NCBI GenBank assembly: GCA_913058295.1
Contig: CAJXRD010000019.1
Span: 1 to 46,611 of the forward strand
Length of the DNA: 46,611 bases
Direction of reading: 5' to 3'
DNA from: an uncultured Flavobacteriales bacterium
GTDB lineage: Bacteria; Bacteroidota; Bacteroidia; Flavobacteriales; Flavobacteriaceae
Positions within the stretch are counted from its first letter, which is position 1; each line of letters opens with the position of its first letter. Positions 13,458 to 15,782 of the stretch are shown here, piece by piece. A program made the translations under genes and the position numbers. Below the pieces are notes generated by a model. The model ran no database searches. It was given only the letters and a program-made list of their open reading frames with translations, and had not been told where the DNA came from.

Positions 13458-13829
13458 TTATTTTGTTTTTTGTACTGTTCCTTTTTGTTTTTTAGTATCT
13501 CCTACAATATTGTATTCAAAAACATATTCTTCACCATTTGTAGTTAGTATCTTCATATGAATGGCTTTTTCTTCTGCCATCCTTTTTGGATTGATTTTCT
13601 TAACAATATACTCACAATCGTTAATCCATCGAATAGAGGATGTGTCTGCTTTTCCTTTAAAATAATCGATTTCAATTGAATCGTTTCTATAAAAAGTAGT
13701 TGTGAGCATTTCTGTACCCACTAAGGCTTCATATTTAAATGTTCCAGTCTTAAAGTGTGAACAGTTACGTTCTGCCTGATAACAGCTAATAAAAGGTAAA
13801 GAGACAAGGAAGATGATTAAAAAACGCAT
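13458..13829 (-). CDS. Small lipoprotein of unknown function
   Basis: 123 residues with signal sequence MRFLIIFLVSLPFISC; the LPFISC lipobox puts the lipidated cysteine at residue 16. The mature part has CSHFKTGTFKYE, RNDSIEIDYFKGKADTSSI and INDCEYIVKK, a pattern I recall from conserved flavobacterial proteins that are sometimes misnamed in databases as DNA topoisomerase IV; nothing here resembles a topoisomerase. First gene of the operon with trmL. Two further cysteines (22 and about 71) could form a disulfide. Function unknown. Confidence 0.75.
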   Translation of the reverse strand: MRFLIIFLVSLPFISCYQAERNCSHFKTGTFKYEALVGTEMLTTTFYRNDSIEIDYFKGKADTSSIRWINDCEYIVKKINPKRMAEEKAIHMKILTTNGEEYVFEYNIVGDTKKQKGTVQKTK

Positions 13830-13872: not shown

Positions 13873-14292
13873 TTAGTTTTTATATGATTTAAAGCTGCCG
13901 TCTTTATAGAATATAATTATGCGATCAATATCCTCTTCATTCAAACTTTTTAAAATATTTGAAGAAAGAGGAGGGGTATTTTGTGTTTTTTCAACGTTTT
14001 TTAAAGAAGTGGCAATTATAGGTGCTTTTTCATTTATAGAAGAAGTAGTGGTGTTTTCATTTTTCTCTGAAGGAAAATTTCCTTTTCCATTTAAAATCCA
14101 ATACAATTCTACCTCAGGAAATTTTTCTAAAACCTTCATTACAAAATCTAAACTAGGCTTATTTCTACCAGATAGGAGGTGGGAAATTGTGGACCTATTT
14201 ACGCTAATTTGATTAGAGAAATCAGTAGCAGAAATCCCATAATAGTTTAGGATAATCTGAAGCCTTTTACCAAAATCTGTACTGTTTACCAT
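13873..14292 (-). CDS. XRE-family transcriptional regulator
   Basis: 139 residues. An N-terminal Cro/CI-type helix-turn-helix (residues 7-70) is clear from GKRLQIILNYYGISATDF, SVNRSTISHLLSGRNKPS and ELYWILNGKGNFP. A Ser/Thr/Asn-rich linker follows, then a short C-terminal segment (EEDIDRIIIFYKDGSFKSY) that may mediate oligomerisation. Divergent from the M14 carboxypeptidase. Two near-identical 12 bp operator-like sites lie at its own promoter and start codon and two more at the M14 promoter, so autoregulation and control of the M14 gene are likely. Confidence 0.9.
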   Translation of the reverse strand: MVNSTDFGKRLQIILNYYGISATDFSNQISVNRSTISHLLSGRNKPSLDFVMKVLEKFPEVELYWILNGKGNFPSEKNENTTTSSINEKAPIIATSLKNVEKTQNTPPLSSNILKSLNEEDIDRIIIFYKDGSFKSYKN

Positions 14293-14297
14293 TGTAA
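14286..14297. promoter_or_regulatory. Operator-like site 1 (XRE start codon)
   Basis: TTACCATTGTAA, 11 of 12 identical to the perfect palindrome TTACAATTGTAA at 14534. It covers the start codon of the XRE gene (14290-14292). Centre to centre it is 35 bp from site 2. Confidence 0.6.
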
Positions 14298-14320
14298 TGT
14301 TTTATTCGCTGGATTTGATG

Positions 14321-14332
14321 TTACAAATGTAA
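14321..14332. promoter_or_regulatory. Operator-like site 2 (XRE -7 box)
   Basis: TTACAAATGTAA has inverted arms TTACA and TGTAA. It overlaps the -7 box of the XRE promoter, where a bound protein would block RNA polymerase. Confidence 0.65.
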
Positions 14333-14354
14333 TGCATTATGGATAGATTACAAA
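14324..14354 (-). promoter_or_regulatory. Promoter of the XRE regulator
   Basis: On the minus strand TTTG (14354-14351), 19 bases, then TACATTTG (14331-14324): a textbook Bacteroidetes -33/-7 promoter. The -7 element is nested in operator-like site 2. Confidence 0.75.
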
Positions 14355-14533
14355 TAATATTAATAAAAATGATTAAATATATTGAATTTATACTTCATGT
14401 AAATAATTATAAATAGCTGAAATATAGAATTATATGATTTAAACATTAAATTTATAATTTGTTAGTTGCAAAAAGCATTAATTGGACACTGTAATTGGTT
14501 ACAACAGTATAATTTTTAGAGACATTTACCTGT

Positions 14534-14545
14534 TTACAATTGTAA
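14534..14545. promoter_or_regulatory. Operator-like site 3 (M14 -33 region)
   Basis: TTACAATTGTAA, the core of the perfect 16 bp palindrome GTTTACAATTGTAAAC (14532-14547). It overlaps the likely -33 TTG of the M14 promoter and is 36 bp, centre to centre, from site 4. Confidence 0.7.
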
Positions 14546-14566
14546 ACTAAGCATTGTTTATCTTTG
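14540..14566 (+). promoter_or_regulatory. Promoter of the M14 carboxypeptidase
   Basis: TTG (14540-14542), 16 bases, TATCTTTG (14559-14566). The -7 box is an exact consensus match, 18 bases before the start codon, so the leader is only about 12 bases. Confidence 0.65.
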
Positions 14567-14569
14567 TGG

Positions 14570-14581
14570 TTAGCATTGTAA
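14570..14581. promoter_or_regulatory. Operator-like site 4 (M14 transcription start)
   Basis: TTAGCATTGTAA, 11 of 12 identical to site 1 and 10 of 12 to site 3. It lies between the -7 box and the start codon of the M14 gene, on the expected transcription start. Confidence 0.6.
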
Positions 14582-14584
14582 ACT

Positions 14585-15751
14585 ATGAAAATTGAAGCTT
14601 GGTATTCCGATTATTTTGAGTCAAGATTATCGGGAAGATATATCACCCTAGAACATATAAATCCTATATTAAAAGAATACAAAAACAGCTTAGAAATTTC
14701 TTCTCTTGGACAATCAGAATTGGGTAAAAATATTCCCATGATTAAAATCGGAAAGGGAAAAAAAAAGATTCTTGCATGGTCTCAAATGCATGGAAATGAA
14801 AGTACGTGCACCAAAGCAATCTTCGATTTTCTAAAATTTATTCAGCAAAAGGATCTATTTCAAGATGAAATAAGAGCTTTTCTCAATAAGCACACCTTAT
14901 ATGTTATTCCTATGTTAAATCCTGACGGAGCAGAGCTTTATACAAGAGAAAACTCAAATTTGGTTGATTTAAATAGGGATGCGCAAGATTTATCTCAAAA
15001 AGAAAGTAAAATTTTAAAGAATGCTTTTAGATCTTTAAATCCAGAATTGTGTTTAAATCTTCATGGGCAAAGAACTATTTTCGGATTAGAAAATGGACTT
15101 CCAGCAACGGTTTCCTTCCTATCTCCTGCAGCTAATAAAGAAAGGGAATTGGTTCCTTCTCGGTTGGAAGCAATGAAACACATTGTTAAAATGAATAAAT
15201 CGCTGCAGAAGTACATTCCTGGACAAATAGGAAGGTATGATGATTCCTTTAATAGTAATTGTTTTGGAGATTACTTTCAGATGAATGACGTTCCAGTAAT
15301 TCTTTTTGAAGCTGGTCATGATAAAAATGATTATTCAAGAGAAAAGTCTAGGGAATATATATTTTATGCATTTCTTGATCTATTTGGGATTACAAAGAGC
15401 GACAATGGAAATGAAAATGATTACTTCGCAATTCCAGAAAATAAAAAGAACTATAAAGATGTAATACTTAGAAACATTAGATTTAATGAAAATGAGCCCA
15501 CTTTTTCTATTGCAATTCAATATGTAGAGTTTTTGAATAAAGGAAAGATTGTATTTATTCCAAGAATTGAAAGCGTGGTGAATTTGGAGGGTCTATACGG
15601 ACATCTAGAAATTCAAGGAAATGGAGATGTTGTTTTAGTGAATTCACAAAATAATGTTAAAATTGGCGATAATATTTTGAGTATTATTAGTAATGAAGGC
15701 AATTCTTTGATATATTTAAATGAAAATGGTCTAATTGATAAATATAACTAG
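14585..15751 (+). CDS. M14-family zinc carboxypeptidase
   Basis: 388 residues without a signal peptide, so probably cytoplasmic. The zinc site is HxxE in QMHGNES (H69, E72) with a third ligand in LNLHGQ; NPDGAELYTREN and VDLNRD match the substrate-binding Asn-Arg region, and LFEAGHD supplies the catalytic Glu. After about residue 270 a C-terminal beta-rich domain of unknown role follows. Physiological substrate unknown; M14 relatives cut C-terminal residues from peptides or cell-wall peptides. Divergent from the XRE regulator and followed by an Lrp/AsnC regulator, so it sits between two regulators. Confidence 0.88.
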   Translation: MKIEAWYSDYFESRLSGRYITLEHINPILKEYKNSLEISSLGQSELGKNIPMIKIGKGKKKILAWSQMHGNESTCTKAIFDFLKFIQQKDLFQDEIRAFLNKHTLYVIPMLNPDGAELYTRENSNLVDLNRDAQDLSQKESKILKNAFRSLNPELCLNLHGQRTIFGLENGLPATVSFLSPAANKERELVPSRLEAMKHIVKMNKSLQKYIPGQIGRYDDSFNSNCFGDYFQMNDVPVILFEAGHDKNDYSREKSREYIFYAFLDLFGITKSDNGNENDYFAIPENKKNYKDVILRNIRFNENEPTFSIAIQYVEFLNKGKIVFIPRIESVVNLEGLYGHLEIQGNGDVVLVNSQNNVKIGDNILSIISNEGNSLIYLNENGLIDKYN

Positions 15752-15759
15752 TAAATTTG
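15752..15759 (+). promoter_or_regulatory. Promoter -7 box of the Lrp/AsnC regulator
   Basis: TAAATTTG, exact TAnnTTTG match, begins right after the M14 stop codon and 24 bases before the regulator start codon. Confidence 0.5.
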
Positions 15760-15782
15760 CAGCCAATCAATTAAAGCAAATA

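Follow-up and report, generated by a model that had tools for sequence, protein, structure and literature searches.

A small XRE-family regulator that probably switches off its own gene and a neighbouring peptidase gene, apparently by folding the DNA between them into a loop

Results and Discussion

A peptidase gene between two regulator genes

In an uncultured Flavobacteriales bacterium, a gene encoding an M14 metallopeptidase is placed between genes for two different regulators, one of the XRE family, transcribed divergently, and one of the Lrp/AsnC family, following downstream. In a preliminary description of the window, i.e. of the whole stretch of 46,611 nucleotides analysed here, four similar 12-mers in the divergent region had been read as two pairs of operators, at which one repressor, most simply the XRE protein, controls itself and the peptidase. 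The genes concerned are the following:

13873 to 14292, minus strand: XRE-family regulator, 139 aa (Pfam HTH_3, AlphaFold2 model)
14585 to 15751, plus strand: M14 metallopeptidase, 388 aa (PF00246)
15753 to 15760, plus strand: predicted -7 box of asnC, TAAATTTG, directly after the M14 stop codon
15783 to 16262, plus strand: Lrp/AsnC-family regulator, 159 aa (AsnC_trans_reg and HTH_AsnC-type domains, both over their cut-offs)

The XRE protein matches Pfam HTH_3 with 27.2 bits (gathering cut-off 23). Its AlphaFold2 model comprises an N-terminal HTH domain with five helices in residues 4-68, as is typical for the HTH_3 type, a linker and a C-terminal beta hairpin, modelled with pLDDT values of about 90, below 50 and about 85, respectively. 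The neighbours of this fold in the PDB are small HTH proteins including C-proteins, SinR and 434 Cro (best E-value 1.8e-3). At sequence level, the family profile has one PDB match only, the putative DNA-binding protein 3bs3. An XRE match is present in 186 of the 199 sampled genomes of the family, this genome counted.

The peptidase scores 54.8 bits against PF00246 (cut-off 21.6). Its residues H69, E72, N130, R131, H160 and E242, which we take to correspond to the zinc-binding and catalytic residues of carboxypeptidase A, are invariant in all 17 aligned sequences. Judged by eye, the protein has no evident signal peptide, and its score against the MpaA equivalog (20.9) is far under the cut-off of 157. 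The AsnC protein exhibits mostly 74-79% identity to its relatives (range 57-84%). A small lipoprotein-like gene at 13458-13829 has no match in Pfam or NCBIfam; such a gene follows the XRE gene in most relatives and adjoins the M14 gene in seven of eight family loci lacking XRE.

An array of putative operators at fixed spacings

The divergent region was compared in 169 loci containing the XRE gene, 97 of them from the sampled family genomes (the window's own included) and 72 from a set of 80 named M14 loci, which belong almost all to Flavobacteriaceae. Removal of three duplicates left 166 loci, i.e. the window's own and 165 relatives. The unit found in this comparison is the 16-bp palindrome GTTTACAwwTGTAAAC, and the array formed by it is larger than the four 12-mers. 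In the window the following elements were located in the 292 bp between the two genes and at the XRE start; a strand is given where one was assigned:

14284 to 14299: O1, operator over the XRE start codon, position conserved in relatives
14319 to 14334: O2, operator containing the predicted XRE -7 box TACATTTG (14324 to 14331, minus strand), recognised by spacing and TAnnTTTG
14390 to 14429, minus strand: central block with the IHF-like core TTTCAGCTATTTA (14410 to 14422), recognised by the block matrix
14497 to 14512: A, weak operator GGTTACAACAGTATAA, score 9.6, recognised by the A-B spacing
14532 to 14547: B, perfect 16-bp palindrome over the predicted M14 -33 region, 24.0 bits, the best in the window
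14556 to 14571: C, operator slot, degenerate here (GTTTATCTTTGTGGTT), with the predicted M14 -7 box TATCTTTG (14559 to 14566)
14568 to 14583: D, the fourth site of the preliminary description, lineage-specific position, score 15.5

All four 12-mers were found exactly where they had been described (14286, 14321, 14534 and 14570), the third one inside the perfect palindrome GTTTACAATTGTAAAC at 14532-14547; their centre spacings of 35 and 36 bp and the gap length of 292 bp were reproduced as well. The first three are conserved in relatives, but the position of the fourth is generally not.

The XRE gene faces the M14 gene in 159 of the 166 loci, with a median gap of 300 bp (10-90%: 280-343 bp). 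At least three sites of at least 10 bits are present in 155 of these 159 loci, and shuffled sequences contain 0.008 sites of at least 12 bits per 300 bp; the operator matrix maps its own training loci, positions and spacings not being fixed by it. In 138 of the 166 loci the centre of O1 is 0.5 bp away from the first base of the XRE ATG. In the 117 loci with both O1 and O2 these are 33-36 bp apart (mode 35), so that the first of the two proposed pairs is borne out, and so is the overlap of its sites with the XRE start codon (O1) and -7 box (O2). The second pair, 14534 with 14570, is not supported. What is conserved next to B are two sites that had been missed, A at a distance of 34-35 bp upstream and C at 24 bp downstream. 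The B-C spacing is exactly 24 bp in 123 of the 166 loci. For A and B it amounts to 32-35 bp; of the 74 A-B pairs measured next to a B-C pair of 24 bp, 71 have a spacing of 34-35 bp. An extra site about 35 bp past O2 occurs in 26 of the 166 loci. Binding to the same face of the DNA within a pair, as had been considered, is not supported because neither 35 bp (3.3 turns) nor 24 bp (2.3 turns) is a whole number of turns.

A 34-base pattern of the B-C pair gave matches in 101 of the 199 genomes, at 109 places among the matches listed compared to about 21 for the reversed pattern. At least four of these 109 places are off-locus, two of them (L289, L290) with neither gene and two on contigs that do not carry the XRE match. 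The array of predicted operators is conserved at fixed spacings across the Flavobacterium family loci, and the candidate sites form an old, evenly spaced set.

In a scan of the genome the loose 12-mer was not enriched (66 and 59 matches versus 69 and 56 for the reversed control). The window holds six loose matches with 2.18 expected, a number reached in 3 of 100 shuffles. Lone sites therefore mean little and the signal is the cluster. The 16-mer GTTTACAATTGTAAAC occurs without mismatch at one place in the genome only, namely 14532-14547. It is the clustering that is not due to chance: when the whole window was scanned with a matrix trained on relatives, the window excluded, the three best matches were those at 14532, 14284 and 14568, in this order, followed by 14319. 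Five of the seven matches scoring at least 9 are located in 14284-14583; each of twenty Markov-shuffled windows contained 0-6 such matches, anywhere.

The site at 14570 (D) sits 12 bp beyond slot C. A right half of the TGTAAAC type at D is kept by the close relatives L162, L163 and L165 and is absent in L011 of the same genus. Slot C no longer has a right half in the lineage of the window, though its -7 box is intact. D may be a displaced half-site of this lineage, and the stretched inverted repeat at 14556-14583 may still be bound.

Operators overlapping promoter elements and the XRE start codon

An excerpt of PMC9723704 gives TAnnTTTG as the -7 box of sigma-A promoters in Flavobacterium. Within O2 this motif was found on the minus strand in 118 of 122 sites and never on the plus strand, within C on the plus strand in 120 of 125 sites and never on the minus strand, and within B symmetrically (32 on each strand). 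The outward strand bias in O2 and C indicates that each of them is putative operator and predicted -7 box in one. The same operator is thereby found at both predicted promoters of the divergent pair, overlapping promoter elements. Using the -12 to -5 placement in the same excerpt of PMC9723704, transcription is predicted to start at about 14319 (XRE, minus strand) and about 14571 (M14, plus strand). Of 138 loci, 107 also have TAnnTTTG in the last 100 bp before asnC, compared to 17.7 in shuffles. As this box of its own lies behind the M14 stop codon, co-regulation of asnC with the peptidase is not required.

The third codon of XRE is AAC in 140 of the 145 loci with an ATG at the predicted start, AAC making up 27.5% of the Asn codons elsewhere in the same loci. 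At codon 2, all 46 Ile codons are ATA (27.6% elsewhere). This constraint on the codons at the XRE start fits the presence of the putative operator O1.

Helical phase between the two clusters

The centre distance between O2 and B could be determined in the 101 of 166 loci having both O2 and the 24-bp pair. It falls into classes of about 202, 213, 224 and 234 bp, which follow one another at about 10.5 bp; three values (190, 208 and 255 bp) are outliers. The vector strength at 10.5 bp is 0.83-0.84 for O2 to B and 0.72 for O1 to B (106 loci). If the tree is ignored, control intervals show vector strength as well (0.57 for the distance from C to the M14 ATG, 0.49 for the whole gap length at 10.5 bp), and for this reason it is important to take the tree into account. 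A quick M14 tree yielded 23 edge-disjoint pairs with unequal O2-B distances, the difference being 8-14 bp (18 pairs), 20-22 bp (three pairs), 34 bp and 47 bp. None of these independent differences is 4-7 or 15-19 bp, and the one of 47 bp is out of phase. Compared to uniform changes the phasing has a P of about 2e-5, given the simple null and the quick tree, whereas the control distance from C to the M14 ATG is unphased (P 0.18-0.40, 13 pairs). Mean cosines are 0.61 at a period of 10.5 and 0.66 at 11, the latter fitting slightly better. Helical phase is kept between the predicted XRE cluster (O1, O2) and the predicted M14 cluster (A, B, C), about 213 bp apart.

Midway between the mirror-image pairs O1-O2 and A-B lies an IHF-like element. 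The matrix of this central block, trained on the same loci that it maps, scores above 6 bits in 158 of the 166 loci and 30.0 in the window; best scores in shuffled regions have a median of -4.3, with 4.2 at 95% and 11.1 at 99%. The block is also present in six of seven loci without M14. Its core reads TCARNNNNTTR on the minus strand. The conventional IHF consensus, WATCAANNNNTTR in an excerpt of PMC10380432, matches exactly on the minus strand of 25 of 164 spacers and on the plus strand of four (3.1 on average in shuffles), and with one mismatch on 104 and 76, respectively (shuffles 58.7). The window's core has two mismatches to the consensus as worded in that excerpt. A looser pattern, chosen after the block had been seen, matches 105 minus and 7 plus strands (shuffles 6.5). 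HU/IHF-family genes were found in all 12 genomes tested, two in 11 of them and one in the twelfth. According to PMC5683647, HU/IHF proteins of Bacteroidetes align well in only 60% of cases.

The core in the window is centred at 14416, between O2 and A, which are 89.5 and 88.5 bp away, respectively. Among the loci, the distance from the core to B is about 112, 123 or 133 bp and that from O2 to the core about 90 or 100.5 bp. Of 62 loci, 40 have two arms, O2 to core and core to A, of equal length to within 3 bp; in the other 22 the arms differ by 7-12 bp. The candidate element is phased to both clusters, and we infer an involvement of HU/IHF at this position.

A proposed repression loop

We favour, with a probability of roughly 0.7, that the XRE protein is a mainly local autorepressor and that the two clusters, joined by a DNA loop, shut the XRE and M14 promoters together. 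XRE dimers would bind the 16-bp palindromes. As O2 and C contain the -7 boxes, a dimer bound there would exclude RNA polymerase at the XRE or the M14 promoter, respectively; B would cover the M14 -33 region and O1 the XRE start codon. XRE bound at the two clusters would then contact itself across the loop, O2 with A and O1 with B, the DNA being bent by a bending protein at the IHF-like element midway. Such a joining would explain the 35-bp step in both arms and also why A has been kept though it lies over no promoter element. A signal, plausibly tied to a peptide handled by the peptidase, would release XRE. In its most detailed form the proposal is a mirror-symmetric repressor hairpin, in which a central HU/IHF-type bend puts O2 on A and O1 on B, C seals the peptidase promoter and selection in the family has preserved the phase through about 23 independent changes of the spacer. 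We put this detailed form forward as a tentative possibility.

Alternatively it might be that XRE represses locally at each promoter without any loop, and that the classes 10-11 bp apart result from duplication or slippage of a unit or from intrinsically curved DNA. Indels can indeed have preferred sizes, and A/T triplets in the spacers show an autocorrelation at 9-10 bp, in related and thus non-independent sequences. However, independent differences of 20-22 bp fit the phase, too, the neighbouring control interval is unphased in independent pairs, and the bend-like core is phased to both clusters, with arms that are symmetric or about one turn off. We regard repression without a loop as rather unlikely. 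It is improbable that XRE represses itself at O1 and O2 and activates M14 from A and B, for although these two sites precede the M14 promoter, C has the -7 box of this promoter inside it, which is a repressing position.

The looped repression proposed here resembles the GalR-HU repressosome of the E. coli gal operon, where two operator groups with a bend element between them and in helical phase mediate looped repression. Operator groups and helical phasing between them are found in the array as well; a bend at the central IHF-like element and the repression of promoters by a loop would be further likenesses. The systems differ in that GalR is a repressor of the LacI/GalR family acting on two operators, while the candidate repressor here is of the XRE family, with five predicted operators. 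Moreover, the array would belong to a divergent autoregulated pair, with operators fused to -7 boxes. XRE repressors of the 434/lambda type and SinR-like ones act on multiple palindromic operators and are autoregulated. They share the HTH fold with the XRE protein studied here, which differs from them by its low-confidence linker and beta hairpin, its GTTTACA half-sites and the steps of 35 and 24 bp.

Looped repressors and autoregulated repressors are well known. To our knowledge it is unusual that a whole operator array is conserved to the base pair in its spacing throughout a bacterial family, and a literature search in one open-access collection revealed no account of this XRE regulator or its array. 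Should the loop exist, the spacer variants found naturally in about 100 loci would amount to a test of helical phasing, for which engineered spacers are the usual means, and a hairpin phase kept by selection would be an evolutionary record of DNA looping. In the array the Bacteroidota -7 box and a start codon are each fused with putative operators. From the comparison a regulator, an operator and a target gene can be proposed for a group about whose control of transcription little is known, and it offers a precise handle on an uncharacterised conserved peptidase.

Presence of the sites in loci with and without XRE

That one regulator, most simply XRE, acts at both promoters is supported by the comparison of loci. 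All 162 loci with both XRE and M14 have at least one site of at least 12 bits within 300 bp of M14. Among 15 M14 loci lacking XRE, 14 have no such site and one has one; AsnC is retained in all 15. These loci comprise eight usable ones from the 13 XRE-less genomes among the 199 sampled and seven of eight named loci. Left out were G095 (contig edge, one site), G003, G041, G058 and G161 (no M14 match) and the named locus L219 (contig edge, three sites). L219 carries three good sites upstream of M14 at positions 1-179, its draft genome has no XRE match, and the contig ends short of the XRE position.

On the quick M14 tree, which took in all 15 XRE-less and 85 of 161 XRE-containing M14 rows, the presence or absence of XRE changes nine times, at least five times on well-supported branches. 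A sign test for co-loss on the five well-supported pairs gives p = 0.0625. In four XRE-less loci (L145, L151, L153, L154) the gap between the lipoprotein gene and M14 is below 80 bp, so that one deletion could have taken gene and sites together. L144, L146, L147 and L220 keep about 130-220 bp, yet they are without the array, one relic being found in L147. In the loci without M14 a site lies within 6 bp of the XRE start, as extrapolated from weak matches, in five of seven cases, and the 24-bp pair in none of the seven.

In other families of the order 14 XRE loci were fetched, 13 of them with M14 within about 1.7 kb. In eleven of these 13 the intergenic region contains a site of at least 13 bits, in most cases one or two such sites. 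Four sites are present in L272. In L271 there are five, with steps of 34 and 24 bp among them; its M14 gene would be located past the end of the contig. AsnC was not found in the fetched stretches, reaching at least 1.7 kb past M14 in seven of the 13 loci and 0.5-1 kb in six; in these six it could lie beyond the fetched ends. As L271 and L272 carry operators and no asnC in the fetched stretch, the switch may predate the linkage to asnC. XRE, rather than AsnC or BlaI, is the gene best tracking the predicted sites and the likely binder of the array.

Lrp-family proteins often bind several spaced palindromes, and the asnC gene is both adjacent and highly conserved. Its position after the peptidase, as described before, was confirmed, and the locus shares with Lrp/AsnC-controlled promoters that such a regulator is encoded in the cluster. 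Its presence, however, does not track the sites: the 15 XRE-less loci mentioned above retain AsnC and are siteless but for one relic, one genome (G136, 84% complete, locus L047) has XRE and O1 and no AsnC match at 1e-25, and no AsnC was found in the stretches fetched around the XRE-M14 loci of other families. Binding of the array by the AsnC protein is very improbable.

Least credible of all is binding by a BlaI/MecI/CopY-family repressor, whose operator core TACANNTGTA is the same and which is present in this genome, because PF03965 was found in 11 of the 15 XRE-less genomes, all without the array, was not found in G188 and G136, both having sites, and has its only match in this genome on another contig. 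In an excerpt of PMC7253601, GTTTACAATTGTAAAC is found letter by letter in the CopR operators of copB and yahC in Lactococcus, i.e. the operator can be identical over 16 bp, and two operators with a proposed layered occlusion are described. CopR and CopY belong to another protein family (PF03965), and here a repressor of this family is neither encoded with the array nor does its presence track it.

Other possible targets

From a larger number of off-array sites listed, 13 were fetched (12 strict ones and the one-mismatch site of this genome). Nine are located inside mechanical ORFs and two in a divergent thioesterase/esterase promoter, which also exists in this genome. At this promoter a site of at least 12 bits is present in seven of 11 genomes with XRE and in none of four without. 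Beside it a distinct palindrome, TTTGTAnnnTACAAA, was read by eye as intact in nine of the 11 genomes with XRE. It is possible that this promoter is a second XRE target or that it belongs to another regulator; the promoters of the XRE-less genomes differ as a whole. Because of the few genomes and the second palindrome, we call XRE only "mainly local". In L296 the operator-like site of this thioesterase/esterase promoter is located upstream of the esterase gene (C16:50442-50457).
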